A stretch of DNA of 32,469 nucleotides from an uncultured Bacteroidota bacterium. Lineage in GTDB: Bacteria > Bacteroidota > Bacteroidia > B-17B0 > Aurantibacillaceae. The notes under the pieces were generated by a model, which worked only from the letters and a program-made list of their open reading frames with translations, had not been told where the DNA came from and ran no database searches. The stretch is taken from NCBI GenBank assembly GCA_903928655.1, contig CAIYSA010000025.1:1-32469 (forward strand). The letters are read 5' to 3'. The translations under genes were made by a program, and so were the position numbers. This document shows, in pieces, positions 4,801-23,735 of the stretch (positions are counted from its first letter, which is position 1; every line of letters starts with the position of its first letter).

Positions 4801-6177
4801 TTTTCCTTCAATTAATTTTGGTTGGAATGCTTGAATACCTAATCTATGTAATGTAGGCGCACGGTTTAACATAACCGGGTGACCTCTTAATACGTTTTCT
4901 AAGATATCCCAAACAATTGGCTCTTTTTTATCTACAATTTTCTTGGCAGATTTTACCGTTTTCACGATACCACGCTCAATCATTTTACGGATAATAAATG
5001 GCTTGAATAATTCAGCTGCCATATCCTTAGGTAAACCACACTCATGTAATTTCATTTCAGGTCCTACAACAATTACCGAACGAGCCGAATAATCCACACG
5101 TTTTCCTAATAAGTTTTGACGGAATCTACCTTGTTTACCCTTTAATGAATCAGATAATGATTTTAATGGGCGGTTTGATTCTGTTTTAACTGCGTTAGAT
5201 TTACGAGAGTTGTCAAATAATGAATCAACTGACTCTTGTAACATACGTTTTTCATTACGTAAAATTACATCTGGCGCTTTAATTTCAATTAAACGTTTTA
5301 AACGGTTGTTACGAATAATAACACGACGGTATAAATCATTTAAATCAGAAGTAGCAAAACGACCACCATCTAATGGCACCAAAGGACGCAATTCTGGCGG
5401 AATAACCGGAACCGTTTTAATAATCATCCATTCAGGACGATTTTCAATATGTTTGTTCGCAGAACGGAAAGCCTCAATAACTTGTAAACGTTTTAATGCT
5501 TCGTTTTTACGTTGTTGAGATGTTTCTGTATTTGCTTTATGACGTAATTCGTAAGATAATTCATCTAACTCTAAACGTGCTAATAAATCTTGTAAAGCTT
5601 CGGCTCCCATTTTAGCAATAAATTTATTAGGATCTGCATCGTCTAATAAAGCATTTTCTTTTGGAAGCGTGTCTAATAAATTTAAATATTCTTCTTCAGA
5701 TAAAAAATCTAAATATTGTGTGCCACCTTGCGCAGCAACACCTGCATTAATTACTACATAACGCTCGTAGTAAATAATCATATCTAATTTTTTAGTTGGT
5801 AAGCCTAATAAATAACCAATTTTATTTGGTAATGAACGGAAGTACCAGATATGAGCAACAGGAACAACTAAGTTAATGTGACCCATACGTTCTCTACGAA
5901 CTTTTTTCTCTGTAACCTCAACACCACAACGGTCACAAATAATCCCCTTGTAACGGATACGTTTGTATTTACCACAGTGACATTCGTAATCTTTAACTGG
6001 TCCGAAAATACGTTCGCAAAACAAACCATCTCTTTCTGGTTTGTATGTTCGGTAATTGATGGTTTCTGGTTTCAAAACCTCACCACTACTACGTTGAAGA
6101 ATAGTTTCTGGAGAAGCTAAACTAATAGTGATTTTTGAGAAGTTTGATTTTACTTTGTTATCTTTTCTTAAAGCCAT
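1882..6177 (-). CDS. rpoC: DNA-directed RNA polymerase subunit beta'
   Basis: This is the largest subunit of RNA polymerase and, with RpoB, forms the catalytic cleft. At 1431 aa it has the usual Bacteroidota length. The N-terminal zinc-binding cysteines are C66, C68, C81 and C84. The catalytic loop NADFDGDQM lies at residues 472-480, with Mg2+-binding aspartates D474, D476 and D478. The bridge-helix/trigger-loop region ([19 protein letters not shown]) and the second zinc site ([16 protein letters not shown]) follow in order, and the C-terminus is the conserved [10 protein letters not shown] segment. It lies 97 nt downstream of rpoB and is the last gene of the operon, before a strong terminator. 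Confidence 0.99.
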
Positions 6178-6225
6178 TTTTTTGCTTTTTGGGTTTAGTG
6201 ATAATAAAAATTTATTTACTTTTTT

Positions 6226-6260
6226 CCTTTGTTGACTTCGAGTGCCTCAGTCAACAAAGG
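6226..6260 (-). other. Conserved-looking stem-loop in the rpoB-rpoC spacer
   Basis: Perfect 12-bp arms CCTTTGTTGACT / AGTCAACAAAGG with an 11-nt loop occupy the 97-nt spacer. On the coding (minus) strand an A-rich stretch follows the stem, not a U-tract, so it is unlikely to be a strong terminator. An mRNA processing or stability element is more likely. Confidence 0.6.
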
Positions 6261-6274
6261 AGTTAAAGTGTCTC

Positions 6275-9200
6275 TTAGTCAAGTGTTACATCTAATGCCA
6301 ATCCACGTAATTCGTGCATTAATACATTAAACGATTCAGGTATCCCCGGAGTTGGAATGTTTTCGCCTTTTACAATTGCTTCATAAGCTTTTGCACGACC
6401 CATTACATCATCCGATTTAATAGTTAACAATTCTTGTAGCACATTGGCTGCACCGTATGCTTCTAGTGCCCAAACCTCCATCTCACCAAAACGCTGACCA
6501 CCAAATTGTGCTTTACCACCAAGAGGTTGTTGTGTAATTAATGAGTATGGCCCTATTGAACGAGCGTGCATTTTATCATCAACCATGTGACCTAATTTCA
6601 ACATATAGATAATACCTACAGTAGCTGGCTGATCAAATTTCTCACCTGTTCCGCCATCAATTAAATAAGTACGACCGTATTGAGGAATTCCTGCTTTAGT
6701 TGTATAACTATCAATTTGTTCCATTGTAGCACCATCAAAGATTGGTGTAGAGAATTTCAATCCTAATTCTTTACCAGCCCAAGCTAATACTGTTTCGTAA
6801 ATTTGTCCGATGTTCATACGAGATGGCACACCTAATGGATTTAATACGATATCAACCGGAGTTCCATCATCTAAATAAGGCATATCTTCATCACGAACAA
6901 TACGTGCAACAATACCTTTATTTCCATGACGACCAGCCATCTTATCACCTACTTTTAACTTACGTTTTTGAGCGATGTAGATTTTTGCTAATTGTACAAT
7001 TCCGTTTGGTAATTCATCACCAACTGTAATTTGGAATTTAGTACGTTTGTATTGACCTAAGAAATCATTGAACTTAATCATGAAATTGTGCATTAAACGC
7101 TCAATTTGCTCGTTTTTATCTTTATCAGTTGTCCAATTACCTGGATTTACTTCCGAGTAATCAACTTTTTCTAATAATTTTTGAGTAAACTTAGTTCCTT
7201 TTGCAATAATTTCTTCTCCTAAGATATTAGAAACACCTTGAGAAGTGCGACCATTAACTAGTTCAAATAATTTTTCGATTAATTGGTATTTAAGGTTTGC
7301 AACATTTTTATGATGATCAGCATCTAATTTATCAATTAACGGTTTCTCATCGGCTTTTTGTTTTTTATCCTTAATCGCACGAGAGAATAATTTTTTGTCA
7401 ACGATAACACCTTTTACAGACGGAGAAACACGCAATGAAGCATCTTTCACATCACCTGCTTTATCACCAAAGATAGCACGTAATAATTTTTCTTCTGGAG
7501 ATGGATCAGTTTCACCTTTTGGAGTAATTTTTCCAATTAAGATATCACCTTCTTTAACCTCAGCACCAACACGAATAACACCTTTTTCATCTAAATCTTT
7601 AGTTGCTTCTTCACTTACGTTAGGAATATCTGGAGTTAATTCTTCCATTCCACGTTTTGTATCACGCACTTCTAAAGAATACTCATCAATATGAATAGAT
7701 GTAAATACATCATCACGAATGATACGTTCAGAAATAACAATGGCATCCTCAAAATTATACCCTTTCCAAGGCATGAACGCAACTTTTAAGTTTCTACCTA
7801 AAGCTAATTCACCTTTGTCTGTTGCATAACCATCACATAATACTTGTCCTTTAGTTACTTTATCACCTTTCTTAACGATTGGCTTTAAGTTCATACAAGT
7901 ACTTTGATTTGTTTTTTGGAATTTAGTTAATTTATAAGTTCTAACATCACCTTCAAAACTCACTAATTGCTCGTCTTTAGTTCTGTTGTAACGTATAATA
8001 ATTTCACGAGCATCAACGTATTCAACAATACCATCGCCTTCAGCATTAATTAATACACGGCTATCTTCAGCTACACGAGCTTCGATACCAGTACCAACAA
8101 TTGGCGCTTCAGGGCGTAATAAAGGAACTGCTTGACGTTGCATGTTCGAACCCATTAAGGCACGGTTGGCATCATCATGCTCCAAGAAAGGAATTAATGA
8201 CGCAGCGATAGAAGCAATTTGATTTGGAGCAACGTCCATTAAATTTACTTTACCTGGCTCAATTACTGGAAAATCTCCTTCGTAACGAGCTGTAACTTTA
8301 TTATTAACAAAATTACCTTTGTCATCTAATTCAGCACTTGTTTGTGCAATGTTTTGTGAATCTTCTTCTTCAGCAGTTAAATAAGTAATTGGTTTATTAA
8401 CATCAACTCTACCATTTGTTACCGAACGGAAAGGAGTTTCAATAAATCCTAATTTATTAACTTTTGCAAAAACGCAAAGTGAAGAAATCAATCCAATATT
8501 TGGTCCTTCTGGAGTTTCAATTGTACATAAACGGCCGTAGTGAGTGTAGTGAACGTCACGCACCTCAAAACCTGCACGCTCACGAGATAAACCTCCTGGC
8601 CCTAGTGCCGATAAACGACGCTTATGCGTAATTTCCGATAATGGGTTGGTTTGATCCATGAACTGCGATAATTGATTGGTTCCGAAGAACGAATTAATTA
8701 CAGAAGATAATGTTTTTGCATTAATTAAATCGGTTGGTGTAAATACCTCGTTATCACGAACATTCATACGTTCACGAATAGTACGAGCCATACGTGCTAA
8801 ACCAACACCAAATTGAGAAAATAATTGCTCACCAACAGTACGAACACGACGGTTAGACAAGTGATCAATATCATCCACATCAGTTTTAGAATTAATTAAC
8901 TCGATCAAATATTTCATGATTAAGATAATATCTTCTTTAGTTAAAACACGAATATTCATTGGAATATCGATATTCAACTTTTTGTTGATACGGAAACGAC
9001 CTACTTCTCCTAAATCATAACGTTTGTCAGAGAAAAATAATTTATCAATAACGCCACGAGCAGTTTCTTCATCAGGTGGTTCGGCATTACGAAGTAAACG
9101 GTAGATATACTCGATTGCTTCTTTTTCAGAATTTGTAGAATCTTTTTGTAACGTATTATAGATAATAGCAAAATCAGCCGTATTAACGTCTTCTTTATGT

Positions 9201-10087
9201 AAAATAATAGATTTAACACCAGCATCAGCAATTAAGTCGATATGAATATCATCTAAAATCGTTTCACGATCTACAATAACTTCGTTACGCTCGATAGAGA
9301 CAACTTCCCCAGTATCCTCATCAACGAAATCTTCAATCCATGTTTTTAAAACACGAGCTGCTAATCTACGTCCTACTTCACGTTTTAACCCAGCTTTTGA
9401 AACTTTCACTTCATCAGCAAGACCAAATATTTCTAAAATTTGTTTATCGCTTTCAAAACCGATAGCACGTAATAACGTGGTTACTGGTAATTTTTTCTTA
9501 CGATCGATGTAAGCATACATTACATTATTAATGTCTGTAGCAAATTCAATCCAAGAACCTTTAAAAGGGATAACACGAGCACTATATAATTTAGTACCAT
9601 TAGCGTGACGGCTTTGGCCGAAAAACACACCTGGTGAACGATGTAATTGAGAAACGATAACACGCTCAGCTCCGTTGATTACGAAAGAACCTTTTGGAGT
9701 CATGTAAGGTATTGTTCCTAAATAAACATCCTGCACAATGGTTTCAAAATCTTCATGTTCAGGATCAGTACAATAAAGCTTTAATTTAGCTTTTAAAGGC
9801 ACTGAATAAGTTAAACCACGGCTAATACACTCTTCTAGAGCATAGCGTGGTGGATCTACGAAATAATCCAAAAATTCTAACACGAAATTGTTTCTCGCAT
9901 CAGAAATAGGAAAGTTTTCGGCAAACACTCGGAATAAACCTTCGTTTTTACGATTGTCCGGTGTTGTTTCTAATTGAAAGAAATCTTGGAAAGATTTCAC
10001 TTGTATATCCAAAAAATCTGGATATTCAATTGGAAATTTGTTCGAAGAGAAATTGATTCTCTGTGATTTTTTTATTTGTGTAGCCAA
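6275..10087 (-). CDS. rpoB: DNA-directed RNA polymerase subunit beta
   Basis: This is the 1270-aa beta subunit of RNA polymerase. The rifampicin-binding segment begins at about residue 472 ([20 protein letters not shown]) and keeps the usual sensitive-type residues D478, H488 and S493 (E. coli D516, H526 and S531), so no classical rifampicin-resistance change is visible. GRHGNKGIV in the C-terminal half and the terminal switch/clamp region ([13 protein letters not shown]) are intact. It follows rplL after a 121-nt spacer that contains an attenuator-like hairpin, and precedes rpoC. Confidence 0.99.
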
Positions 10088-10145
10088 TGTAATTAAGTTA
10101 ATTAGTTAGTATTCTTAAAAGATTCACGACAAATTACTAAAAATA

Positions 10146-10193
10146 GAAAAAAGGGTTAAGGTGTTTTGACTAGCAAATACACCCTAACGCCTT
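10146..10193 (-). terminator. Attenuator-like hairpin between rplL and rpoB
   Basis: Read on the minus strand, AAGGCGTTAGGGTGT pairs with ACACCTTAACCCTT, leaving one bulge and one mismatch, and is followed directly by a U-rich tail (TTTTTTCTATTTT). This has intrinsic-terminator form yet sits inside an essential operon, so it is best read as a partial terminator that sets the ribosomal-protein to polymerase-subunit ratio. E. coli has an attenuator in the same spacer; function here is inferred. Confidence 0.6.
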
Positions 10194-10208
10194 AGTTTTG
10201 TAAGTAAA

Positions 10209-10577
10209 TTATTTTACTTCTACTTTTGCACCAGCTTCTTCTAAAGTCTTTTTGATAGACTCTGCTTCTTCTTTAGAGATACCTTCTTTAACTGGTTTTG
10301 GAGCACCGTCAACTAAATCTTTAGCTTCTTTTAATCCTAATCCTGTTAAGTCTTTTACAACTTTAACTACACCTAATTTAGCTGCACCTGCTTCTAACAA
10401 AATTACATCAAAAGATGTTTTTGCTGCAGCGGCATCAGCGCCACCACCTGCTGCTACAACTACTGCTGCTGCTGCTGGTTCGATTCCGTATTCGTCTTTT
10501 AATACTGTTGCTAATTCTTGAACCTCTTTAACTGTCAAGTTTACTAATGTTTCAGCGATTGCTTTTACGTCTGCCAT
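10209..10577 (-). CDS. rplL: 50S ribosomal protein L7/L12
   Basis: This 122-aa acidic stalk protein binds L10 as dimers and recruits translation factors to the 50S subunit. The N-terminal dimerisation domain (about 1-35) is followed by an alanine-rich hinge ([18 protein letters not shown]) and the C-terminal factor-binding domain (about 52-122) with the conserved [21 protein letters not shown] segment. It lies 92 nt after rplJ. The plus-strand 89-aa ORF in the track is an antisense shadow of the alanine-rich hinge. Confidence 0.98.
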
Positions 10578-10669
10578 TTTTTTATTAGTTTAATTTGTTA
10601 TTTTTATTAATTTAATTTGTTTTGCTTACACTATGTAAGACTAGTTTATTCTTTGTATTCAGTATCAAT

Positions 10670-11173
10670 TTAAGCTGCTACTTCTTCGCTTTCTTTGGTT
10701 TTGTTTTCTAAACCACCTATTACACGTTGAATTGGAGCTTGAAGTAATGCGATAACATCTGCGATTAACTCGTTTTTCGATTTTAATCCTACTAATGCAT
10801 CTAATTTATCGTCGCCAATAAATATCATTTCTTCAACGTAAGCTGCTTTTAATTGAGGTTTATCAGTTCCTTTGCGAAACTCTTTAATTAACTTAGCAGG
10901 CACATTAGATGTTTCTGTTAAGATTAAAGCTGTTTGGCCTTTTAGTGCTGGAATAAGTTGCGCAAGATTGCTATCGTTTGCACGCTCTAAAGCTTTCGCT
11001 AATAGAGTGTTTTTAACAACAGACATACTTACGTTTTTCTCATAACAAGAACGGCGTAATTGATTTACCTTTTCTACTGACAAAGAAGAACAATCTGCTA
11101 AATAGATTTTTGTATTAGCATTTAAAATGCCAACTAAACGATCTATTTCTTGTGTTTTTTCTTGTTTGTTCAT
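10670..11173 (-). CDS. rplJ: 50S ribosomal protein L10
   Basis: This 167-aa protein forms the base of the ribosomal stalk, binding 23S rRNA with its N-terminal domain and L7/L12 dimers with its C-terminal helix. The N-terminal region reads LVGILNANTKIYLADCSSLS and contains the RRSCYEKNVSMSVVKNTLL segment typical of the family. It starts 18 nt after rplA, so there is no room for a long autoregulatory leader directly in front of rplJ. The 92-nt gap to rplL is AU-rich. Confidence 0.97.
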   Translation of the reverse strand: MNKQEKTQEIDRLVGILNANTKIYLADCSSLSVEKVNQLRRSCYEKNVSMSVVKNTLLAKALERANDSNLAQLIPALKGQTALILTETSNVPAKLIKEFRKGTDKPQLKAAYVEEMIFIGDDKLDALVGLKSKNELIADVIALLQAPIQRVIGGLENKTKESEEVAA

Positions 11174-11191
11174 AGTAATAAAGTTTGTTTA

Positions 11192-11884
11192 TTAATTAAA
11201 TGTTTTTGGATCGATTAAAATACCCGAACTCATAGTACTGCTCATGTAAACCGACTTAACGTAAGTTCCTCTTGCAGACGATGGTTTTAATTTCATAATA
11301 GCTTGTAAAACTTCCATTGCGTTTTCAGTTAATTTTTGAGCGTCGAAAGATGCTCTACCAATTCCTGTGTGTACAATTCCAGCTTTGTCTACTTTAAAAT
11401 CAATTTTACCACCCTTTGAATCAGTTACTGCTTTACCAATATCCATGGTAACAGTTCCTGTTTTAGGGTTAGGCATTAAACCACGAGGTCCTAATACACG
11501 ACCTAATGCACCAACTTTCCCCATTACTGAAGGCATAGTGATAATTACGTCGACATCTGTCCACCCGTTTTTAATTTTTTCGATGTATTCGTCTAATCCA
11601 ACGAAATCCGCTCCTGCTGCTCTAGCTTCTGCTTCCTTATCAGGAGTAACAATTGCTAAAACGCGCAATACTTTACCCGTACCGTGAGGCAAGGTAACAG
11701 TTCCACGAACCATTTGATTAGCTTTACGAGGATCAACTCCTAAACGGATCGCAAGATCCACGGACGCATCAAATTTTGTAGTTGTGATTTCTTTCACAAC
11801 TTTTGAAGCTTCAGCAACAGTGTGTGCTTTGTTCGAATCGAACTTAGCATCTGCTACTTTTCTTTTTTTAGTTAACGTTGCCAT
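11192..11884 (-). CDS. rplA: 50S ribosomal protein L1
   Basis: This 230-aa protein forms the L1 stalk next to the E site and in many bacteria represses its own operon by binding the rplK leader. The signature [19 protein letters not shown] lies near residue 130, with a complete N-terminal helix ([13 protein letters not shown]) and C-terminal region ([15 protein letters not shown]). It lies 39 nt downstream of rplK, in its usual position. Confidence 0.98.
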
Positions 11885-11923
11885 TTTTTAAAAAGCTTGT
11901 TTTTTGATTAATAATTAATTGAA

Positions 11924-12367
11924 TTAGTTTTTTACAGGTGCTTCTCCTGTTGTGGTGATTCCCATGCTACGTGCAGTTCCCGCAACCATCGACATTGCAG
12001 CTTCAATTGTAAAACAGTTCATGTCTACAATTTTGTCTGTTGCTATGGTACGAATTTGATCCCATGAAATAGAACCAACTTTTTTACGGTTACTTTCGCC
12101 AGAACCTTGTTTAACCTTAGTTACCTCTAATATTTGAACTGCTACTGGTGTACGTTTGATAATAAAATCAAAAGTTTTGTCAGCGTATACATTAATCAAA
12201 ACAGGTAATACTTTACCAGCTTGTTCTTGAGTTCTAGCATTAAATTGCTTACAGAACTCCATAATGTTAACACCTTTTGCACCTAAAGCAGGACCAATTG
12301 GAGGCGACGGGTTAGCAGCTCCACCTTTAATCTGAAGCTTTACAATTGCTGATAACTCTTTTGCCAT
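11924..12367 (-). CDS. rplK: 50S ribosomal protein L11
   Basis: This 147-aa protein forms part of the GTPase-associated centre of the 50S subunit. The N-terminal domain has the typical proline-rich helix ([20 protein letters not shown]), and the C-terminal RNA-binding domain ends with [12 protein letters not shown]. It is preceded by a 119-nt spacer from nusG that contains a nested inverted repeat, a candidate L1-responsive leader. Confidence 0.98.
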
Positions 12368-12412
12368 TTTTTTGTTTTTATTTGTTTGTTACATTGTTGG
12401 GTATAAATCGTT

Positions 12413-12462
12413 TAGTTAAATTGACTTTGAGTTGGAAGCAGCAAAGGATCTCATTTTAACTA
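12413..12462 (-). promoter_or_regulatory. Candidate structured leader of rplK-rplA
   Basis: On the minus strand TAGTTAAA ... TTTAACTA (8 bp) encloses an asymmetric internal loop (ATGAGATC opposite TCAA), an inner CTTTG/CAAAG stem and a 12-nt terminal loop. A helix with an asymmetric internal loop in front of rplK is where L1 autoregulatory sites are found in other bacteria. The pairing is seen; the L1 role is inference, and the specific L1 consensus was not confirmed. Confidence 0.35.
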
Positions 12463-12486
12463 GATTTACACCATTCAATTTTTTAA

Positions 12487-13059
12487 TTATTCTCTTTCTA
12501 CTTCGCCGAAACTTAATTCAACAGGTGTTTTACGACCAAAAATCTTAACAGTAACTTTAATTTTTTTCTTCTCTTCGTTAATTTCTTCAATTGTACCATT
12601 GAAACCATTAAATGGTCCGTTAATTACTTTAACTGATTCGCCAATAATATAATTACTAGTTACAACACTTTCTGATTCTGTTAATTCATCAACTTTTCCT
12701 AAAATACGATTTACCTCTGATAAACGCATTGGTACGGCATCACCACGTTTTGATTCTCCTAAAAAACCAATAACACCAGTAATGTTTCTAATAACGTGAG
12801 AAACTTCACCTACCAAAGCGGCCTCTATTAAAACATAGCCAGGGTAAAACGAACGTTCTTTTTGAAATTTCTTACCATTACGAATTTGAATAAATTTTTC
12901 GGTTGGGATAAGAACTTGAGCAACATAATCATTCATTTTTAAACGATTAATCTCAACTTCAATATATTGTTTTACTTTTTTCTCTTGACCACTAATAGCA
13001 CGCACAACGTACCATTTTTTTTCAATCGAAGAAGGTTCTTTATTTACTATTTCAGCCAT
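12487..13059 (-). CDS. nusG: Transcription termination/antitermination factor NusG
   Basis: This 190-aa protein has an N-terminal NGN domain (KKWYVVRAISGQEKKVKQYI, about 14-33, through FYPGYVLIEA) that binds RNA polymerase. The C-terminal KOW domain (GESVKVINGPFNGFNGTIEE, about residues 138-157) contacts Rho or ribosomal protein S10. It begins 17 nt after secE, its normal partner across bacteria. No insertion domain is seen. Confidence 0.97.
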   Translation of the reverse strand: MAEIVNKEPSSIEKKWYVVRAISGQEKKVKQYIEVEINRLKMNDYVAQVLIPTEKFIQIRNGKKFQKERSFYPGYVLIEAALVGEVSHVIRNITGVIGFLGESKRGDAVPMRLSEVNRILGKVDELTESESVVTSNYIIGESVKVINGPFNGFNGTIEEINEEKKKIKVTVKIFGRKTPVELSFGEVERE

Positions 13060-13076
13060 TTTGTCAGTGTAATTAA

Positions 13077-13277
13077 TTATAAACCATTAACCATTTGATA
13101 AGCTAATTCCATTAACTTACTAAATGCCATATCCATTCCCCAAACTAATAACCCAATAATTGTTGAAGCTATCATTACTAATATAGCACTATTTTGTAAT
13201 TCTGGCCAAGTTGGCCAAGTTACTTTATTAAATAATTCATCTTTAGTTTCTTCGATGTATGTTCCAATCTTGCTCAT
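13077..13277 (-). CDS. secE: Preprotein translocase subunit SecE
   Basis: This is a 66-aa single-span form of SecE, the clamp subunit of the SecYEG inner-membrane channel. An amphipathic N-terminal stretch (YIEETKDELFNKVTWPTWPEL) contains the conserved K-V-x-W-P motif. One transmembrane helix (about 29-50, SAILVMIASTIIGLLVWGMDM) follows. The short length is normal outside the enterobacteria. It sits between tRNA-Trp and nusG, as in many phyla. Confidence 0.95.
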   Translation of the reverse strand: MSKIGTYIEETKDELFNKVTWPTWPELQNSAILVMIASTIIGLLVWGMDMAFSKLMELAYQMVNGL

Positions 13278-13361
13278 TTTCTTTTTGATTTAAGATTAAT
13301 TATATAAATTTTAATTCTAATTTCGAACGTAAATTCATTATTCAACTTTGTTTCTTTATAG

Positions 13362-13432
13362 CACGGGTGGAGGGATTCGAACCCCCATCAGCGGTTTTGG
13401 AGACCGATATTCTACCCTTGAACTACACCCGT
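13362..13432 (-). tRNA. tRNA-Trp (anticodon CCA)
   Basis: The reverse complement folds as a cloverleaf. The 7-bp acceptor stem is ACGGGTG/CACCCGT, the anticodon loop CTCCAAA gives CCA, the T-loop is TTCGAAT and the discriminator is G. The 3' CCA is not encoded. It lies between tuf and secE and is probably processed from the common transcript. Confidence 0.96.
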
Positions 13433-13453
13433 AAAATAGTGTTTTTATTAAAT

Positions 13454-13490
13454 AACAAAATGGCTAAGCCTTTCGGCAAGCCATTTTGTT
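13454..13490 (-). other. Hairpin downstream of tuf
   Basis: The outer arms AACAAAATGGC/GCCATTTTGTT (11 bp) have an inner GCC/GGC pair closing a 4-nt loop. The element lies 19 nt past the tuf stop and before tRNA-Trp. The minus-strand tail is only moderately U-rich (ATTTAATAAAAAC). It may be a partial terminator or a processing site that sets tuf apart from the tRNA-secE message. Confidence 0.5.
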
Positions 13491-13508
13491 AAAAAACTAC
13501 ACTTTTAA

Positions 13509-14696
13509 TTACTCAGTAATTTCAGTTACTTGTCCAGCACCAACTGTACGTCCACCTTCGCGCATTGCAAAACGTAAACCTTTAGCCATTGCTACTGCAG
13601 AGTGTAACTCAACATTAATTGTAACGTTATCACCAGGCATAACCATTTCGCGTCCTTCTTCTAAAGTAATCTCTCCAGTTACGTCCGTTGTACGTAAATA
13701 GAATTGAGGACGGTATTTGTTATGGAATGGAGTATGACGTCCACCTTCTTCTTTTTTCAAGATATAAACCTCAGCTTTAAATTTTTTGTGTGCTTTAATA
13801 GAACCTGGTTTAACGATAACCATACCACGACGGATATCAGCTTTGTCAATACCACGTAATAATAAACCAACGTTATCTCCAGCTTCACCGTAATCTAAAA
13901 TTTTACGGAACATTTCAACACCTGTAACAGTTGATGTTAATTTTTCATCACCCATACCTAAGATCTCAACTGGATCATTAGAGTTGATTACACCTGTTTC
14001 AATACGACCAGTAGCAACTGTTCCACGACCAGTAATTGTAAACACGTCTTCAACTGGCATCAAAAATGGCTTATCTTTTTCACGTGGAGGTAATGGAATG
14101 AAAGTATCAACCGCATCCATTAATTCCATAATTTTATCAACCCATTTAGGATCGTTATTTAAACCACCTAAAGCAGAACCTTGAATAATAGGAGTGTTAT
14201 CACCATCAAACTTATAGAATGATAATAATTCACGGATTTCCATTTCAACTAATTCTAACAATTCAGCATCTTCAACCATATCCACTTTATTCATGAATAC
14301 AACGATTGTAGGAACACCAACTTGACGAGCTAATAGGATATGTTCACGAGTTTGAGGCATTGGACCATCAGTTGCAGCTACTACTAAAATAGCTCCATCC
14401 ATTTGTGCAGCACCAGTAATCATGTTCTTAACATAATCAGCATGTCCTGGACAATCTACGTGAGCGTAGTGACGAGTTGCAGTAGAATACTCAACGTGAG
14501 AAGTATTAATAGTAATACCACGTTCTTTTTCTTCAGGAGCATTATCAATAGAAGAGAAATCTCTAACTTCTGATAAACCTTTTGATGCTAATACAACTGT
14601 AATAGCAGCAGTTAATGTTGTTTTACCGTGATCTACGTGACCAATTGTACCAATGTTTACATGTGGTTTGGAACGGTCGAATTTTTCTTTAGCCAT
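13509..14696 (-). CDS. tuf: Elongation factor Tu
   Basis: This 395-aa GTPase delivers aminoacyl-tRNA to the ribosomal A site. The P-loop GHVDHGKT is at 19-26, DCPGHADYV at about 80, and the guanine-specificity motif NKVDM at about 135. The beta-barrel domains 2 and 3 follow, ending with [12 protein letters not shown]. It sits between tRNA-Thr(GGT) and tRNA-Trp, the position of tufB in E. coli. Strong, even codon use fits high expression. Confidence 0.99.
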
Positions 14697-14759
14697 TGTT
14701 ATTTTTTTTTATTGTTATTATTTATTTTTAATTTAATTTTCTCTCTTTCAATCTTGTTG

Positions 14760-14831
14760 AGCTGTTGAGCGGGATTGAACCGCCGACCTCCTCCTTACCA
14801 AGGAGGTGCTCTACCACTGAGCTACAACAGC
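14760..14831 (-). tRNA. tRNA-Thr (anticodon GGT)
   Basis: The reverse complement begins GCTGTTGTAGCTCAGTGG. The acceptor stem is GCTGTTG/CAACAGC, the anticodon arm is CCTCC-TTGGTAA-GGAGG and the T-loop is TTCAATC. The discriminator is T and no CCA is encoded. It is directly upstream of tuf, as thrT is in E. coli. Confidence 0.95.
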
Positions 14832-14885
14832 TTGTTAAATCTGCCGTTTGCTTTATTTTAAAGAACTGTACTTTTGTATACACGA

Positions 14886-14911
14886 AAAGTCCCATGAAAT
14901 GTAGGGACTTT
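14886..14911 (-). other. Hairpin in the tRNA-Gly to tRNA-Thr gap
   Basis: Arms AAAGTCCC/GGGACTTT (8 bp) with a 10-nt loop lie in the otherwise featureless 167-nt gap between tRNA-Gly and tRNA-Thr(GGT). The other tRNAs of this cluster are separated by only 37 nt (Tyr-Gly) and 8 nt (Thr-Tyr). A processing or attenuation site in front of the tRNA-Thr/tuf segment is possible. No good promoter for tuf was recognised here. Confidence 0.4.
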
Positions 14912-14998
14912 CAAAAAAAGTTAAACCGCATGCACAGATTCTTCCTTTTTTGTCCGCTTATACGGTTATTCAACAACTTCACTTTCCATTTACTATAG

Positions 14999-15071
14999 AG
15001 CGAAAGACGGGTCTCGAACCCGCAACCTCCAGCTTGGAAGGCTGGAGCTCTACCAATTGAGCTACTTTCGC
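14999..15071 (-). tRNA. tRNA-Gly (anticodon TCC)
   Basis: The reverse complement begins GCGAAAGTAGCTCAATTGG. The acceptor stem is GCGAAAG/CTTTCGC, the anticodon arm is CCAGC-CTTCCAA-GCTGG and the T-loop is TTCGAGA. The discriminator is T and no CCA is encoded. It corresponds in position to E. coli glyT. Confidence 0.96.
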
Positions 15072-15108
15072 TTAATCTTGCTTCAATGCGACAACCATTG
15101 CTTGCTTG

Positions 15109-15189
15109 TGGGGACAGGAGGATTCGAACCTCCGAAGCTCGCGCAACAGATTTACAGTCTGTCCCATTTGGCCACTCTGGTATATCCCC
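15109..15189 (-). tRNA. tRNA-Tyr (anticodon GTA)
   Basis: The 81-nt reverse complement begins GGGGATATACCAGAGTGG. It has the long class II variable arm expected of bacterial tRNA-Tyr. The anticodon arm is ACAGA-CTGTAAA-TCTGT, the T-loop is TTCGAAT and the discriminator is A. No CCA is encoded. Confidence 0.96.
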
Positions 15190-15197
15190 AAATTAAG

Positions 15198-15270
15198 AGC
15201 CGAAGAAGGGACTCGAACCCCCGACCTACTGATTACAAATCAGTGGCTCTACCAACTGAGCTACTTCGGC
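15198..15270 (-). tRNA. tRNA-Thr (anticodon TGT)
   Basis: The reverse complement begins GCCGAAGTAGCTCAGTTGG. The acceptor stem is GCCGAAG/CTTCGGC, the anticodon arm is ACTGA-TTTGTAA-TCAGT and the T-loop is TTCGAGT. The discriminator is T and no CCA is encoded. It is the first gene of the minus-strand tRNA-tuf-rpo block, 8 nt before tRNA-Tyr. Confidence 0.96.
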
Positions 15271-18241: not shown

Positions 18242-19303
18242 ATGACAGACGATTTAGATGAAGTTGAAAATGGTGAAGAAGAAAAAGAACTTTACGAACA
18301 CAGCAAAATCATAGTAGAAAAAGGGCAAGTAATGATGCGTATCGACAAGTATTTGATGATACGCGTTCCAAATGCAACACGCACAAAATTGCAACACGCT
18401 ATTGATGAGAGTTGTATTTTAGTAAATGGAAAATCTATAAAATCTAATTATAAGATTAAACCCTTTGATGAGATTTCAATTTTAATGACAACACCGCCGC
18501 GTGATGTGGAAGTGTTTGCAGAAGATATTCCTATTAATGTTGTGTATGAAGATGATTACGTTTGTGTTGTAAATAAAGAACCAGGTATGGTTGTACATCC
18601 AGCATACGGCCATTATTCGGGTACATTAGTAAATGCTTTAGCATACCGTTTTAAAAATTTACCAACTTCTAAAACTCAATTAACGGCAGATTTATCAATT
18701 GATAGACCAGGTTTAGTACATCGTATTGATAAAAACACTTCGGGAATTATTATTGTTGCTAAAACAGAATTAGCGATGACGCGCTTAGCAAAAGATTTTT
18801 TTGATAGAAATTTAGATCGTAAATACATTGCCATTGTTTGGGGCGATGTAAAACAAGATGAAGGAACCATTACTTGCAATGTAGCTCGCGATTTAAAAAA
18901 CAGAAAAGTAATGGCTTGCTTTCCGGATAGCGAACATGGTAAACACGCCATTACACATTATAAAGTGCTTGAACGTTTTGGATATGTAACCGTTGTAGAA
19001 TGTAAGTTAGAAACAGGACGCACACACCAAATACGCATACACATGAAACATATTGGGCACCCCTTATTTAATGATAATGAATATGGAGGCGACCGTGTTT
19101 TAAAAGGTTTACCAAGTAATAAATACAAACAGTTTATTGAAAATTGTTTTCAAATTTTACCGCGCCAAGCTTTGCATGCCAAAACATTAGGCATTACACA
19201 TCCTATCACAAAAGAACCCATATTTTTTGAAAGTGATTTGCCAGACGATATGCAACAAGTGATTGACAAATGGAGAAAATATTCTTATGTGATTGAGGAT
19301 TAA
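18242..19303 (+). CDS. rluD: RluA/RluD family 23S rRNA pseudouridine synthase
   Basis: This 353-aa enzyme isomerises uridine to pseudouridine, most likely in helix 69 of 23S rRNA if it is the RluD orthologue. The N-terminal S4 RNA-binding domain (about 30-85) contains RIDKYLMIRVPNATRTKLQ. The catalytic domain carries the motif GLVHRIDKNTSGIIIVAKT near residue 157, with the catalytic aspartate in HRIDK, and RTHQIRIHMKHIGHPLFND near residue 260. It begins one nucleotide after the stop of the T9SS gene. RluD is the best fit by domain layout; RluA or RluC paralogues cannot be excluded, so the symbol is provisional. Confidence 0.9.
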   Translation: MTDDLDEVENGEEEKELYEHSKIIVEKGQVMMRIDKYLMIRVPNATRTKLQHAIDESCILVNGKSIKSNYKIKPFDEISILMTTPPRDVEVFAEDIPINVVYEDDYVCVVNKEPGMVVHPAYGHYSGTLVNALAYRFKNLPTSKTQLTADLSIDRPGLVHRIDKNTSGIIIVAKTELAMTRLAKDFFDRNLDRKYIAIVWGDVKQDEGTITCNVARDLKNRKVMACFPDSEHGKHAITHYKVLERFGYVTVVECKLETGRTHQIRIHMKHIGHPLFNDNEYGGDRVLKGLPSNKYKQFIENCFQILPRQALHAKTLGITHPITKEPIFFESDLPDDMQQVIDKWRKYSYVIED

Positions 19304-19416: not shown

Positions 19417-19439
19417 GAATTTAATGGCTTCATATTATT

Positions 19440-19486
19440 AATTAAAAAAGCACAATTTGAATAATTCATATTGTGCTTTTTTAATT
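19440..19486. terminator. Bidirectional terminator between rluD and the LamG gene
   Basis: AATTAAAAAAGCACAAT (19440-19456) pairs perfectly with ATTGTGCTTTTTTAATT (19470-19486) around a 13-nt loop. The T6 runs on both strands serve the convergent plus-strand rluD operon and the minus-strand LamG gene. Confidence 0.85.
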
Positions 19487-19572
19487 AACGAAATTTATCC
19501 AAATTGATAAATTCCATATGTAGTATAGTTTTTTTAATTCTTAGGTTTAAAAATATTTCTTAAAAATTAAAT

Positions 19573-21789
19573 CTACTGTTTAATTAATTTTCCTGTTTTT
19601 ATCAAATTAGAGTTATTTAAAACTTTAAAAGTATAGATACCATCAACTAAATTATAAATATTAATTGTGTTTAATTCATTTACTAAAACTTGTTTGAAAA
19701 CTAATTTTCCTAAAGCATCATAAATTTCTAATGAAGAATTTTGAGATAATTCAGCAATTAAACTAATATTTAAAAATCCATTAGTGGGATTAGGATAAAC
19801 ATAAATTGAATTTTCTAAAAGTTCATTTATTCCTGTACAAGCATTTACTGTAACCATAACCGTTGATGAAGCAACACATGCCGCAGCATTAGAAACACTA
19901 ACAGTATACGTTGAAGTAATTGTTGGTGAAACCGAAACCGACATTGTTGTAGCACCAGTATTCCAAGTATAAGATGTTGCTGAAGTTGATGCCGATAATA
20001 AAGCGTTTTCACCTAAACAAATTAGTGAATTAGAAGAAGAAGCGGCAACAGTCGGATTAATATTTACAGTAACAGAACTAACAGCAGTGTTTGAACTCAC
20101 ACAACCTAATGAATTTGTTCCAACAACACTATAACTCGTACTTGCCGTTGGCGTAACAATTGCAGATCCGCTTGAATAAGTATAAGTGCCAGCGCCAGTA
20201 GCAACCATTGTAAATGATTTACCTGCACATATTGCGCCACTAGTTACAGAAATTGTAGGAGTTGCATTTACCGTAACTGAACTCACTGCAGTATTTGTAC
20301 AGCCTTCAACACTTGCCCCTGTAACTGAATAAGATGAGCTAATTGAAGGAGTAATAATAGCCGAACCACTAGAATAAGAATAAGTACTAGCTCCACTTGC
20401 GGCCATTGTAAATGAATTACCAGAACAAATTACACCACTATTTACTGTTACTATAGGATTAACATTTACAGTAACTGAACTAATTGCTGTATTAGAACCA
20501 ACACAACCTAAAGTACTAGTTCCTGTAACACTATAACTTGTATTGGTTGTTGGCGTAACCACTACTGAACCTCCAGAATAAGTATAAGTGCCGGCACCAC
20601 TAGCAACCATTGTAAATGGATTGCCTGCACATATTGCACCACTAGTTACAGAAATTGTAGGAGTTGCATTTACCGTAACTGAGCTTATTGCCATATTAGT
20701 GCAGCCATTAATAGCAGTTCCTGTTACACTATACGTTGCACTTGAAGTTGGCGAAACTATTGCAGAACCTGAAGAATATGAATAGGTGCTAGTTCCTGAA
20801 GGTGATATAGTAAATGCAGAGCCTGAACAAATTGTGCCACTTGTAACTGAAACGGTTGGATTAGGTATTACAATTAAACTTTTGGTTGCTACAATATTGC
20901 AACCAGCAGTAGTTGTTCCGTTTACTGTATAGCTTACACTTATAGTTGGGGTAATTACAATGCTTGTTGCATTACTTGCATTGCTCCAAGTATAAGTTGA
21001 TGCCCCGCTTACTGATAAAGTTGTGCTTTTACCTGCACAAATAGTTGAACTTGAGGCGGTAATATTAAAACTTGGATTATTGTATAACTGACAAACTTCA
21101 GTTGCAGTTAATGCACGATTCCACATACCTAAATCATCAATTTTACCTTGAAAAGGTATATTAGCATATGAAGTATTACCAATACCAAAAACACTAGAGG
21201 ATGTCCCTAAAGTTAAAACTGCTGTAGAATCATTAATTACTCCATCTATATACATTTTTACCCTGGTTCCAGGGCCACCATACGTTGTAACTACGTTATG
21301 CCAAAATCCATCATTTACAGGGCTTGCCGAATAAATTTGATTAAGCGATGATCCAGATTCAAAATAAGACCTTCCGGTAGGGGCAACGACCATTTGATCA
21401 AAGATAACAGCCCCTGAAGTTGGATTACCATAACCTGTTATGGCCTGTAAATTAGGGTATTGACTTGTTGGTATTGCTCCACTAGTTGTATTAAACCAAG
21501 CATGAACAGAACGCGGCGCGCTTCCTAATGGTAATGTAGATGGTGTTGCTGTTATAGAGTTAGTAAGGCCATTAAAAGAATAAGCACAACTCGGATTTCC
21601 GTATCTATCAGTTGTTAATGTTGCACCATAAACAGTTCCATTGTTTAAATTAACACTATTATCATTAGCGTTCCCAGTAAATGGCCACCAGCCAATAAGT
21701 CCGCTTGTAGGCACGTAAGATGGCAATTGCGCCATCGAAATTGTTAGTAAACCAAAAGCTGAAATTGCAGTTAGTAGTAATTTTTTCAT
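19573..21789 (-). CDS. LamG-domain repeat surface protein with T9SS sorting domain
   Basis: This 738-aa secreted protein has a signal peptide (about 1-20, ending ISMAQ). A LamG/concanavalin-like domain (about 25-235, starting LIGWWPFTGNANDNS, with GKIDDLGMWNRALTATE near its end) follows, as found in carbohydrate- or protein-binding surface adhesins. Six immunoglobulin-like beta repeats of about 67-72 residues come next, each with a conserved ICxG motif and an SYSV/TYTV strand. A T9SS type A C-terminal domain (YVYPNPTNGFLNIS ... GIYTFKVL) ends the protein. Repeats 1-2 and 3-4 are copies of one dimeric unit 402 bp long. The protein is predicted to be exported to the cell surface, and adhesion is plausible. 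The upstream palindromic element also occurs upstream of the neighbouring Kelch-like gene. Confidence 0.85.
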   Translation of the reverse strand: MKKLLLTAISAFGLLTISMAQLPSYVPTSGLIGWWPFTGNANDNSVNLNNGTVYGATLTTDRYGNPSCAYSFNGLTNSITATPSTLPLGSAPRSVHAWFNTTSGAIPTSQYPNLQAITGYGNPTSGAVIFDQMVVAPTGRSYFESGSSLNQIYSASPVNDGFWHNVVTTYGGPGTRVKMYIDGVINDSTAVLTLGTSSSVFGIGNTSYANIPFQGKIDDLGMWNRALTATEVCQLYNNPSFNITASSSTICAGKSTTLSVSGASTYTWSNASNATSIVITPTISVSYTVNGTTTAGCNIVATKSLIVIPNPTVSVTSGTICSGSAFTISPSGTSTYSYSSGSAIVSPTSSATYSVTGTAINGCTNMAISSVTVNATPTISVTSGAICAGNPFTMVASGAGTYTYSGGSVVVTPTTNTSYSVTGTSTLGCVGSNTAISSVTVNVNPIVTVNSGVICSGNSFTMAASGASTYSYSSGSAIITPSISSSYSVTGASVEGCTNTAVSSVTVNATPTISVTSGAICAGKSFTMVATGAGTYTYSSGSAIVTPTASTSYSVVGTNSLGCVSSNTAVSSVTVNINPTVAASSSNSLICLGENALLSASTSATSYTWNTGATTMSVSVSPTITSTYTVSVSNAAACVASSTVMVTVNACTGINELLENSIYVYPNPTNGFLNISLIAELSQNSSLEIYDALGKLVFKQVLVNELNTINIYNLVDGIYTFKVLNNSNLIKTGKLIKQ
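20222..20700 (-). repeat. 402-bp higher-order tandem duplication in the LamG gene
   Basis: The block CCTGCACATATTGC... starting at 20222 recurs at 20624. The segment through TTTACCGTAACTGA is nearly identical in both copies over about 60 bp. The spacing of 402 bp equals 134 codons, or two of the Ig-like repeats. Recent in-frame duplication of a two-repeat unit explains the pattern. Confidence 0.75.
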
Positions 21790-21903
21790 TATAATTTATA
21801 TTTTAAACACCTCTACTCTAATGGCTTTTCGAGTTCCGCCTAATTTTCTTTTAAAAATTATATGCAAAACAAAGATTAAAGTATCTGAAAATCAATTGGT
21901 AGC

Positions 21904-21943
21904 GGTTTCATAATAGGTATCATGCGCCTCATGAAACCTATTT
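21904..21943. promoter_or_regulatory. Palindromic element, copy 1 (upstream of the LamG gene)
   Basis: GGTTTCATAATAGGTATCAT is followed by the inverted arm CATGAAACCTATTT. AATAGGTATCATG (21912-21924) pairs with CATGAAACCTATT (21930-21942) with one mismatch. It lies about 115-155 nt upstream of the LamG start and just past the Kelch-like gene stop. No U-tract follows on the minus strand, so it does not look like a simple terminator. A near-identical element lies at 23351-23390. Confidence 0.6.
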
Positions 21944-21977
21944 AATAAAGAAAAATGATGGATAAAGGAAGACCTAT

Positions 21978-23276
21978 TTACAATTTGGAGTTATAAAATT
22001 TTTCTAAAATAGCTCTGTTTAATAAAAATGTAAATCGTCGCTTATCGTTTTCAGCTTTATTACGCGTAATCATTCCTTCAGGGAAATCTTTTAAAAGTCG
22101 GTGCCGGCGGAGCTTTCGGCTGTCTCCTTCTAAATGGGAGATGTTCAAAATCTTATCCATTTCGTCCCAATTAATTTCCGAAACAGTTAAATCCATAAAT
22201 ACTTGTGTAATTCGCTTTAACTCTTTGTGATCGGCGTGCGATTCTGCTTTTACTTGAACTGGTTCCAAAACCTTTTCTAATTGATTGTTAACAGTATTTA
22301 TGATAGAGGCTCGGTGTTGCTTTCGCCTTGTATAAATTAAACAAAGTATTAAACCTATGGCTAATAAAACAATAATCATTATAATTTGAAATCTAGATGT
22401 GTTTTTATGTTCCTGTGCTTGCCAAATTATATCCTTAGCCTTTACTGTATTAGATTTCCAAATGTGATCAAAATCTAGAGTAATATCATTAAATCGATCA
22501 TCATGAAACCGATTAAAATAACAGGTATTGCCATTTACCAAATTCAATTTAGTGGCCAGTCCAATGCCATAATCTTCATTATTTATCACCTTAAATTGAT
22601 TAAGGTGGGTGGCAATTACCATTGTTTTCAAATCATTAAATAAGATTAAATAATCCCTCATGAAAATAAATTTTGATTTTGGAAAAAAAGCATGGTGGTC
22701 CATGCTACTAGAAATGCGTTGCCACTGCATGGTTTTTAAATTGAGCCTATAATCATTAGAATCAAGTAAATCAGGCTCTACATTATTGCCTGCTTTAAAA
22801 TTATTAAACGAGTAAATATATTCGCCATGCTTAAAAGCGGGCCCTAAAATAAAAGGAGGAACGTCACCAACAGTTTTTACATAACACCATTCTTTTAATC
22901 TTAAATTAAAATATTTTAAATTATTATTGGTTGTAAAATAACCATATCCGCCTAAGGCATATAAATTATGATTATACGTGAATAAAAACCTATTGTTATC
23001 GCCACCGTGAAACAATGAATGATCTAAACGTTCGAGCGAATCACCTTTTAAATGAAACACATAATGAAACCCTTGAGGATTGAATAAAGTATCACCGTCT
23101 AAATACTGAAAGGTTGCAGCGCCTATTTGCAACAAACAACTTTGCGCATGAAGTTCTCCAAATTGAAAGGCAATGGTGTTTCTAATCGCTTTTTCTTGTT
23201 TTGAGGTAAGCGTTTGAGCCAAAATCGAATAAGAAAGTAACAGAAATGAGAAAAAAAATAAATTGCATTTTGACAT
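21978..23276 (-). CDS. Kelch-like periplasmic domain, transmembrane helix, basic cytoplasmic tail; possible membrane-bound regulator
   Basis: No characterised family was recognised for this 432-aa protein. It has a signal peptide (about 1-20, ending SILAQ) and an extracytoplasmic part with Kelch-like strand pairs, such as HNLYALGGYGYF...LKYFNLRLKEW and GEYIYSFNNF...YRLNLKTMQW. One transmembrane helix follows (about 297-316, IIMIIVLLAIGLILCLIYT), stopped by RRKQHR. The tail of about 115 residues is helical and basic; its end (WDEMDKILNISHLEGDSRKLRRHRLLKDF...NDKRRFTFLLNRA) has the charge and helix pattern of a small DNA-binding domain. The layout of propeller sensor, membrane helix and cytoplasmic output resembles Bacteroidota one-component and hybrid sensors, but no kinase motifs are present. 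It may control itself and the downstream LamG gene through their shared upstream palindrome. That role is inference. Confidence 0.55.
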   Translation of the reverse strand: MSKCNLFFFSFLLLSYSILAQTLTSKQEKAIRNTIAFQFGELHAQSCLLQIGAATFQYLDGDTLFNPQGFHYVFHLKGDSLERLDHSLFHGGDNNRFLFTYNHNLYALGGYGYFTTNNNLKYFNLRLKEWCYVKTVGDVPPFILGPAFKHGEYIYSFNNFKAGNNVEPDLLDSNDYRLNLKTMQWQRISSSMDHHAFFPKSKFIFMRDYLILFNDLKTMVIATHLNQFKVINNEDYGIGLATKLNLVNGNTCYFNRFHDDRFNDITLDFDHIWKSNTVKAKDIIWQAQEHKNTSRFQIIMIIVLLAIGLILCLIYTRRKQHRASIINTVNNQLEKVLEPVQVKAESHADHKELKRITQVFMDLTVSEINWDEMDKILNISHLEGDSRKLRRHRLLKDFPEGMITRNKAENDKRRFTFLLNRAILEKFYNSKL

Positions 23277-23735
23277 CTTAAGCTAAATTTAAAAAATAAA
23301 TTTATAAAAATGCAAAAAAACCAATTATTGCATCATAATGGCGTTTTTTTGGTTTCAAAATAGGTTTCATTGCAAAATGAAACCTATTTTTTCATGTGTT
23401 TCAGTTAAAAATGCCTTTTTAAATCAGAAATTAAGATTGTTTATAGTGTTTTTATAAAAATCAAAATCAAAAAAGAGTTTGTTTCAAAAGGATAAAATCA
23501 CCAGCAATTGTTCATGCTTTTCGTTGCAAAAAAACCATGATTTTCAAAATTGTGCTATTGTTTCGGTGTTGGAACTTTTATTTCCTTCAGCCATTTTTAA
23601 ATTAATTATCAAGTCCATAATCATGTAGACTTAACAACTTTTAAATTACTTGAAATTTAGAATAAAAATAGGTTGCTCAGAGACTTGCTTAATTAAATCG
23701 CTTAACTGCAATTTGTTGAATTAAACTTAACCTAA
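23277..23735. other. Intergenic region upstream of the Kelch-like gene
   Basis: This is about 460 nt of AT-rich sequence without a credible ORF. It contains the palindromic element at 23351-23390 and, beside it, an imperfect inverted pair CAAAAAAACCA / TGGCGTTTTTTTG. The rest (about 23400-23735) shows no recognisable feature. The gap is unusually long for this compact window. Confidence 0.5.
23351..23390. promoter_or_regulatory. Palindromic element, copy 2 (upstream of the Kelch-like gene)
   Basis: GGTTTCAAAATAGGTTTCAT is followed by ATGAAACCTATTTT. The arms AAAATAGGTTTCATT (23357-23371) and AATGAAACCTATTTT (23376-23390) are a perfect 15-bp inverted repeat around a 4-nt loop. It lies about 80 nt upstream of the Kelch-like start codon. 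No gene ends close by, so a terminator role is unlikely; an operator or structured leader is more plausible. Confidence 0.65.

Follow-up and report, generated by a model that had tools for sequence, protein, structure and literature searches.

A Kelch-type membrane protein with phased GAAACC arrays as a candidate transmembrane transcription regulator of surface genes in Bacteroidota

Closest Described Systems

Transmembrane transcription regulators (TTRs), such as ToxR, CadC, and TcpP, are one-component, single-pass inner-membrane proteins that combine a periplasmic input part with a cytoplasmic winged helix, act on DNA from the membrane, and often control exported or surface proteins. Few examples of membrane-bound one-component regulators are known, and these have been counted by Pfam models. 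A census of TTRs found their DNA-binding domains with such models, and its main text mentions neither MarR nor Kelch (PMC10269533). A family whose DNA-binding tail is recognised by no model has been invisible.

The window analysed here (the whole stretch of 32,469 nucleotides from an uncultured Bacteroidota bacterium) contains the gene of a Kelch-like protein that is predicted to share the above features of TTRs, including action on DNA from the membrane and control of a surface protein. On the other hand, its predicted winged helix is C-terminal and MarR/SarA-like instead of N-terminal and OmpR-like, and its input part is a Kelch propeller. By analogy, this protein would work like the ToxR/CadC-type TTRs while standing, without an N-terminal OmpR domain, outside the ToxR/CadC family. 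Since Pfam models miss its tail, the census mentioned above would miss a family with the order Kelch propeller, transmembrane helix, and winged helix. A literature search with partial coverage retrieved no report that links Kelch proteins to bacterial transmembrane regulators and none on this architecture.

Several other described systems resemble individual parts of the locus. MarR/SarA proteins share the predicted fold of the tail; however, the tail has no significant sequence membership in them and, with 90 residues, lacks the MarR dimerisation helices, the window protein is membrane-anchored, and the predicted sites in the family are mainly 11-bp direct repeats rather than one palindrome. 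Judged by its sequence, the regulator falls outside the MarR family. Operators of the OmpR/PhoB type, such as the Pho box, consist of 11-bp direct repeats arranged head-to-tail just upstream of the promoter. Similarly, the sites described below are head-to-tail hexamer/heptamer units placed 11 bp apart just upstream of a promoter, but their sequence is GAAACC, the predicted winged helix is different, and up to seven units are present. In addition, leader RNAs of the DUF805/DUF805b clan (RF03081, RF02914) are found between array and output gene at half of the close loci, although in the genus they are also common without regulator or array.

The Proposed Regulator and Its Predicted Winged-Helix Tail

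The regulator gene (432 aa) lies at 21978..23276 on the minus strand and was annotated from the open reading frame, a Kelch match, Foldseek, and homologues across the class. The layout read by the earlier note (signal peptide, Kelch-like periplasmic part, one transmembrane helix, and basic tail) is that of the gene. The Kelch model PF24681 matches the protein at 8.8e-07, which is below its curated cut-off, and Foldseek with the full-length AlphaFold model, whose confidence is moderate (pLDDT 65), returned Kelch propellers at a probability of 1.00. The transmembrane helix (residues 294-318; 22323..22397, minus strand) was assigned from the AlphaFold helix and the sequence. Because its inner end carries the basic residues RRKQHR and the following residues are also basic, the tail is taken to be cytoplasmic under the positive-inside rule. 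By prediction, the membrane helix and the winged helix thus share one chain. No Pfam or NCBIfam match to a kinase or receiver domain was found in the protein, nor did an N-terminal OmpR-type winged helix (Trans_reg_C) match, the N-terminus being occupied by the signal peptide and the propeller.

The earlier note had suggested a structure prediction for the tail, which was carried out on residues 343-432 (21981..22250, minus strand) with an alignment of 31 tails. The AF2 model (pLDDT 85.6) has the order H-E-H-H-E-E-H, which is that of a winged helix, and the top 50 PDB matches in Foldseek are all DNA-binding proteins of the MarR/SarA type, several of them solved with DNA (best match: E 3e-3, probability 1.00, TM about 0.52). 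With good confidence, the tail is therefore predicted to be a nucleic-acid-binding winged helix, an assignment that draws on AF2, Foldseek, and conservation in the family. None of the Pfam DNA-binding families exceeded the threshold in the 31 tails (best HTH_27, 0.01), and none of these tails reached the curated cut-off of MarR (PF01047; best E 0.038); MarR is the sub-threshold match found in the largest number of tails. Searches of the PDB with the tail sequence gave weak matches, many of which are MarR regulators. The tail is strongly conserved across the family and, within the genus, is restricted to Kelch proteins. Its most conserved part, DSRKLkRhR...GfI.R.kd..DKRrF.Y, corresponds to the recognition helix and wing of the predicted fold.

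Two Elements in the Window and GAAACC Arrays in Its Relatives

Two elements of about 40 bp had been noted in the window, and both are present. Copy 2, a predicted operator upstream of the regulator gene (23351..23390, minus strand), contains GGTTTCAAAATAGGTTTCAT at 23351-23370, followed by the inverted arm. Copy 1, also a predicted operator, lies between the regulator stop and the LamG gene (21904..21943, minus strand) and contains GGTTTCATAATAGGTATCAT at 21904-21923, again followed by the inverted arm. Read on the coding (minus) strand, copy 2 is GGTTTC-N10-GAAACC-N6-GAAACC (units at 23384-23379, 23368-23363, and 23356-23351) and copy 1 is GGTTTC-N11-GATACC-N6-GAAACC (21938-21933, 21921-21916, and 21909-21904), so that both consist of one inverted and two direct hexamers. 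With up to three mismatches allowed, the 20-mer has three matches in the window against 0.12 expected, the third (23052, three mismatches) lying within coding sequence. Compared with L021, the nearest relative of the window's locus (68% identity of the protein), the sequence in front of the regulator gene has diverged, the main exceptions being the hexamers (GGTTTCAtt, TGAAACC, and TTTGAAAC) and short stretches near the start codon; the hexamers of copy 2 hence appear as an island of conservation in this sequence comparison.

Whether the element tracks homologues of the Kelch-like protein, a point raised by the earlier note, could be followed in relatives, and GAAACC arrays do track them. In all 14 close loci, arrays lie before the regulator gene, after it (before the next gene), or in both places. 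Within 200 nt of the regulator gene, GAAACC reaches a density of 6.2/kb on the upstream side and 10.0/kb on the downstream side, about 16-27 times that of the remainder of these loci (0.37/kb). When one mismatch per unit was allowed and the expectation was taken from dinucleotide shuffles, 29 unit pairs spaced by 11 bp were counted in the 14 loci against 0.29 expected, with a second peak at 22 bp. With one locus kept per subclade (L022, L023, and L024 counted as separate), 19 pairs at 11 bp remained against 0.16 expected, and 10 at 22 bp against 0.14.

Individual loci illustrate the layout. On C505, another contig of the window's own genome, GTAACCaatccGTTACCaatatGCAACCgagttGTTACCaatctATTACCaacttGAAACC stands before the regulator and a near-identical array before its LamG neighbour, each with about seven 11-bp units. 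On contig C8 of G003, GAAACCaaaacGAAACCgatttGAAACC and GAAACCgttttGAAACCgaaacGAAACC are the arrays before the regulator and after its stop. Direct repeats of 11 bp prevail in most of the family, and the arrangement of one inverted and two direct units belongs to the window's subclade. Among 30 retrieved matches to GAAACCN{4,6}GAAACC in 20 genomes, seven of the nine intergenic ones are located at a regulator, compared with none of the 21 in longer ORFs (Fisher 1.8e-5; sites were called intergenic with a threshold of 80 residues for ORFs, which one of the two intergenic cases away from regulators misses only narrowly). The feature shared among relatives is the hexamer unit GAAACC in a helically phased array and not the palindrome. 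Accordingly, the palindrome or hairpin was dropped as the functional unit, most relatives having direct repeats alone; of the proposal that a palindromic element serves as operator, the operator-like site is retained and its unit becomes the phased array. GAAACC is not enriched around 19 homologues that are more distant, and distant homologues show no consistent repeat at 10-12 bp, apart from the inverted pairs of the nearer homologue L161 described below.

Promoter Geometry and Direction of Control

The -7 consensus of Bacteroidetes promoters is TAnnTTTG. Downstream of copy 1, a candidate -7 box, TTGTTTTG, was found at 21865..21872 on the minus strand; it agrees with the consensus at 5/6 positions, and its distance from the first base of the last GAAACC is 37 nt. 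When 27 arrays were scored by the offset from their last GAAAC[CT] unit, a single peak appeared at 37 (mean 3.89 of 6, compared with 2.2, sd 0.41, at other offsets). A box of at least 5/6 is present at this offset in 10 of the 27 arrays and at 36 in three more, a count inflated by the near-identical rows L025, L027, L028, and L040, and many arrays have a weak or no match at 36-37. The independent subclades with a -7 box at 36-37 include those of the window, C505 (L024), L025, L026, and L043.

Since the array is held at a fixed spacing from the -7 box, it most likely recruits RNA polymerase. This arrangement, in which the array directly precedes the -33 region, is the pattern expected of a class II activator, and the regulator probably activates rather than represses its targets.

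Proposed Mechanism and Alternative Explanations

Based on computed arrays, phasing, tracking of the protein, promoter spacing, predicted fold, and neighbour exchange, we propose, with a probability of about 0.8, that the Kelch-like protein is a transmembrane one-component transcription regulator with the GAAACC arrays as its operator. The periplasmic Kelch propeller would be the input part and would sense something in the periplasm, a single helix would span the inner membrane, and the MarR-like winged helix of the basic tail would bind DNA from the membrane. Its targets would be the GAAACC hexamers, which in most of the family are 11-bp direct repeats on one face of the helix. From the array upstream of its own promoter the regulator would probably activate itself, and from the same kind of array upstream of the next promoter it would probably activate the neighbour, which is an exported or membrane protein, often a type IX-secreted LamG protein, exchangeable while operator, promoter, and DUF805-type RNA leader stay in place. 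The sense-and-display module with its own operator and membrane-bound regulator, as imagined in the earlier note, gains support from the tracking arrays and the predicted winged helix.

The opposite sign of control would have the array overlap or abut the -33 region and block polymerase until the propeller senses a ligand. Relatives of MarR are mostly repressors, autorepression is common, and the last unit is close to the -33 region; nevertheless, where arrays are long, the added units lie only upstream of the promoter and the downstream end keeps the fixed spacing from the -7 box, and several of the promoters have no obvious -33 TTG, which fits a class II activator better, so that repression is regarded as unlikely. 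The arrays might also be sites of an unrelated soluble regulator, with the Kelch-membrane protein merely co-regulated in the same regulon, as binding of the tail to the arrays is a prediction and other DNA-binding proteins act in trans. However, intergenic paired sites are scarce away from Kelch genes, the tail itself is a predicted winged helix, and each paralogue on contigs C25, C487, and C505 is flanked separately by its own arrays, which makes this explanation improbable.

It is even harder to view the elements as RNA hairpins, that is, attenuators or terminators acting in transcripts instead of DNA operators. Copy 2 does fold stably, its 15-bp stem being perfect, as had been claimed, and closed by a loop of 4 nt (-16.1 kcal/mol, z -4.5); the fold of copy 1, which is located 35 nt past the regulator stop, is imperfect (z -2.0). 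The arms co-vary between the upstream copies of the window and L021. Against this, most relatives carry nothing but direct repeats, which are unable to form this hairpin, and the fixed promoter spacing places the arrays upstream of transcription. The terminator reading was dropped: at both copies the GC-rich stem with U-tract typical of intrinsic terminators is absent, the coding strand has no U-tract (in agreement with the earlier note), and a pattern scan called no terminator-like site at either copy. Overall, a role as RNA hairpins is very improbable. As for a dispersed extragenic palindrome (REP/MITE-like) unrelated to the genes, the two copies are palindromic and intergenic, but the genome-wide search that had been suggested, which covered the whole assembly of 3.25 Mb, returned no other match to the 20-mer below three mismatches; the element is therefore not a dispersed repeat, it tracks homologues in other genomes, and this possibility was dropped as practically negligible.

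The reading as a regulator with its own phased operator may extend beyond the window. At roughly even odds, the locus would represent an undescribed phylum-wide family of Kelch-propeller transmembrane regulators with a C-terminal winged helix, each driving itself and a swappable surface or membrane gene via phased arrays (GAAACC in the window's clade), often together with a DUF805-type leader RNA, as a portable two-layer sense-and-display cassette. The recurrence of the regulator-operator pairing in related bacteria points to a sensor family that surveys built on Pfam would overlook. Its predicted operator, promoter geometry, and adjacent target make the family directly testable, and, if true, the proposal would name the controller of a group of type IX-secreted surface proteins with LamG domains and place DUF805-type RNAs in a regulated transcript.

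Proposed Output Gene, Neighbour Exchange, and Leader RNA

The output gene of the window (19573..21789, minus strand, 738 aa) was annotated with Pfam/NCBIfam as a LamG protein with repeat domains and a type IX secretion sorting domain (LamG PF13385, 60.6 bits; sorting domain PF18962, 47.6 bits), which bears out the exported repeat adhesin that had been read from the sequence. A search of the genome found three LamG (PF13385) genes, two of which directly follow a regulator of the Kelch family; the third (C269) was set aside as uninformative, its contig being truncated and the domain lying in a different large protein. LamG genes were also called by likeness to the window's protein, immediately after the regulator in L022, L042, and L046 and close by in L025, L161, and L164. 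A LamG adhesin is thus the partner in the window and often elsewhere, but not always, as it is swapped between loci. On the downstream side of the regulator gene, the window and L021 share nearly identical operator, presumed promoter, and leader sequences, although unrelated genes follow, namely a LamG gene in the window and the gene of a small membrane protein in L021. Conservation of the leader ahead of differing genes is seen again in L025, L027, L028, and L040. That the neighbour changes while operator and leader remain constant suggests a modular route by which an existing sensor could gain control of new surface genes. The genes around the L021 cassette differ from those around the window's, and the cassette therefore seems to have moved.

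The leader of the LamG gene contains a candidate DUF805b-like cis-regulatory RNA (21810..21842, minus strand; RF02914, 29.3 bits, E 8.9e-06, against a gathering score of 35.6), whose core is identical in L021, where it is upstream of a different gene. DUF805 RNA (RF03081) scores above its cut-off in four relatives, and, when the window is counted with its below-cut-off match, 7 of the 14 loci have an RNA of this clan between the array and the output gene. Because DUF805-type RNAs are common in the genus at loci without regulator or array, they are considered a separate, independent second layer, and the idea of an obligatory partner of the array was dropped, most such RNAs in the genus having no array. 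In G004, DUF805-type RNAs also form tandem clusters (C43:68553-72065 and C77:34194-35439), with several copies inside a few kb; those on C77 precede genes of small lipoproteins and membrane proteins that lie downstream of a regulator.

Two other features of the window were also recorded. The LamG gene and the gene at 18242-19303 converge, and the space between their ends holds a 38-nt inverted repeat at 19425-19501 (82% complementary, 1 nt between the arms), probably a bidirectional terminator. Positions 1882-15270 appear to be an rpoC-rpoB-ribosomal protein-tuf region with five tRNA genes.

Distribution of the Family

Of 20 genomes examined in the genus, 5 contain homologues of the regulator; these number nine, with three in the window's own genome, and further ones occur in the family and class. 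Those in G003, G004, G014, and G015, on the own contigs C487 and C505, and in further MAGs are 31-68% identical, and no viral relatives were found in IMG/VR. In the tree, array-bearing rows are confined to one clade of 19 rows, across about five deep subclades, united by a fork of moderate support (91). Five rows of this clade have no counted array, including L162, whose contig ends after the gene, and L161, in which two GTTTCA-N6/7-TGAAAC inverted pairs lie between a divergent LamG gene and the regulator. In the L024 gene (G000:C505, 3731-4993), one TAA falls within the wider alignment, but reading from the gene's own ATG gives an uninterrupted frame of 420 aa.

In L042/L046 (5872-7877), L043 (609-2569), and L045 (5464-7424), membrane winged-helix proteins occur as tandem pairs. 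One protein of each pair has a Kelch propeller and the other only about 80 residues on the outer side; arrays surround the pair or lie between its members, and such pairs are possible heteromeric regulators.

The architecture of Kelch part, transmembrane helix, and tail recurs phylum-wide in most of the matches read, and a scan of three distant members recognised no Pfam DNA-binding domain. L194, L195, L197, L198, L200, L203, and L204 encode Kelch-TM-winged-helix proteins with lengths of about 500-600 aa, and the tail motif of this phylum-wide set is YDYRRrLRNetIkaIN..D.RR.LYg. L202 appears to hold two such proteins in tandem. In L173, L174, and L177, a distant homologue lies just 5' of a common conserved membrane-enzyme gene (about TYYLTPVVIQVVKLKRLFEKLSERSSHATHIPSFGG), perhaps a WecA/MraY-like glycosyltransferase, and this shared neighbour hints at an envelope target.
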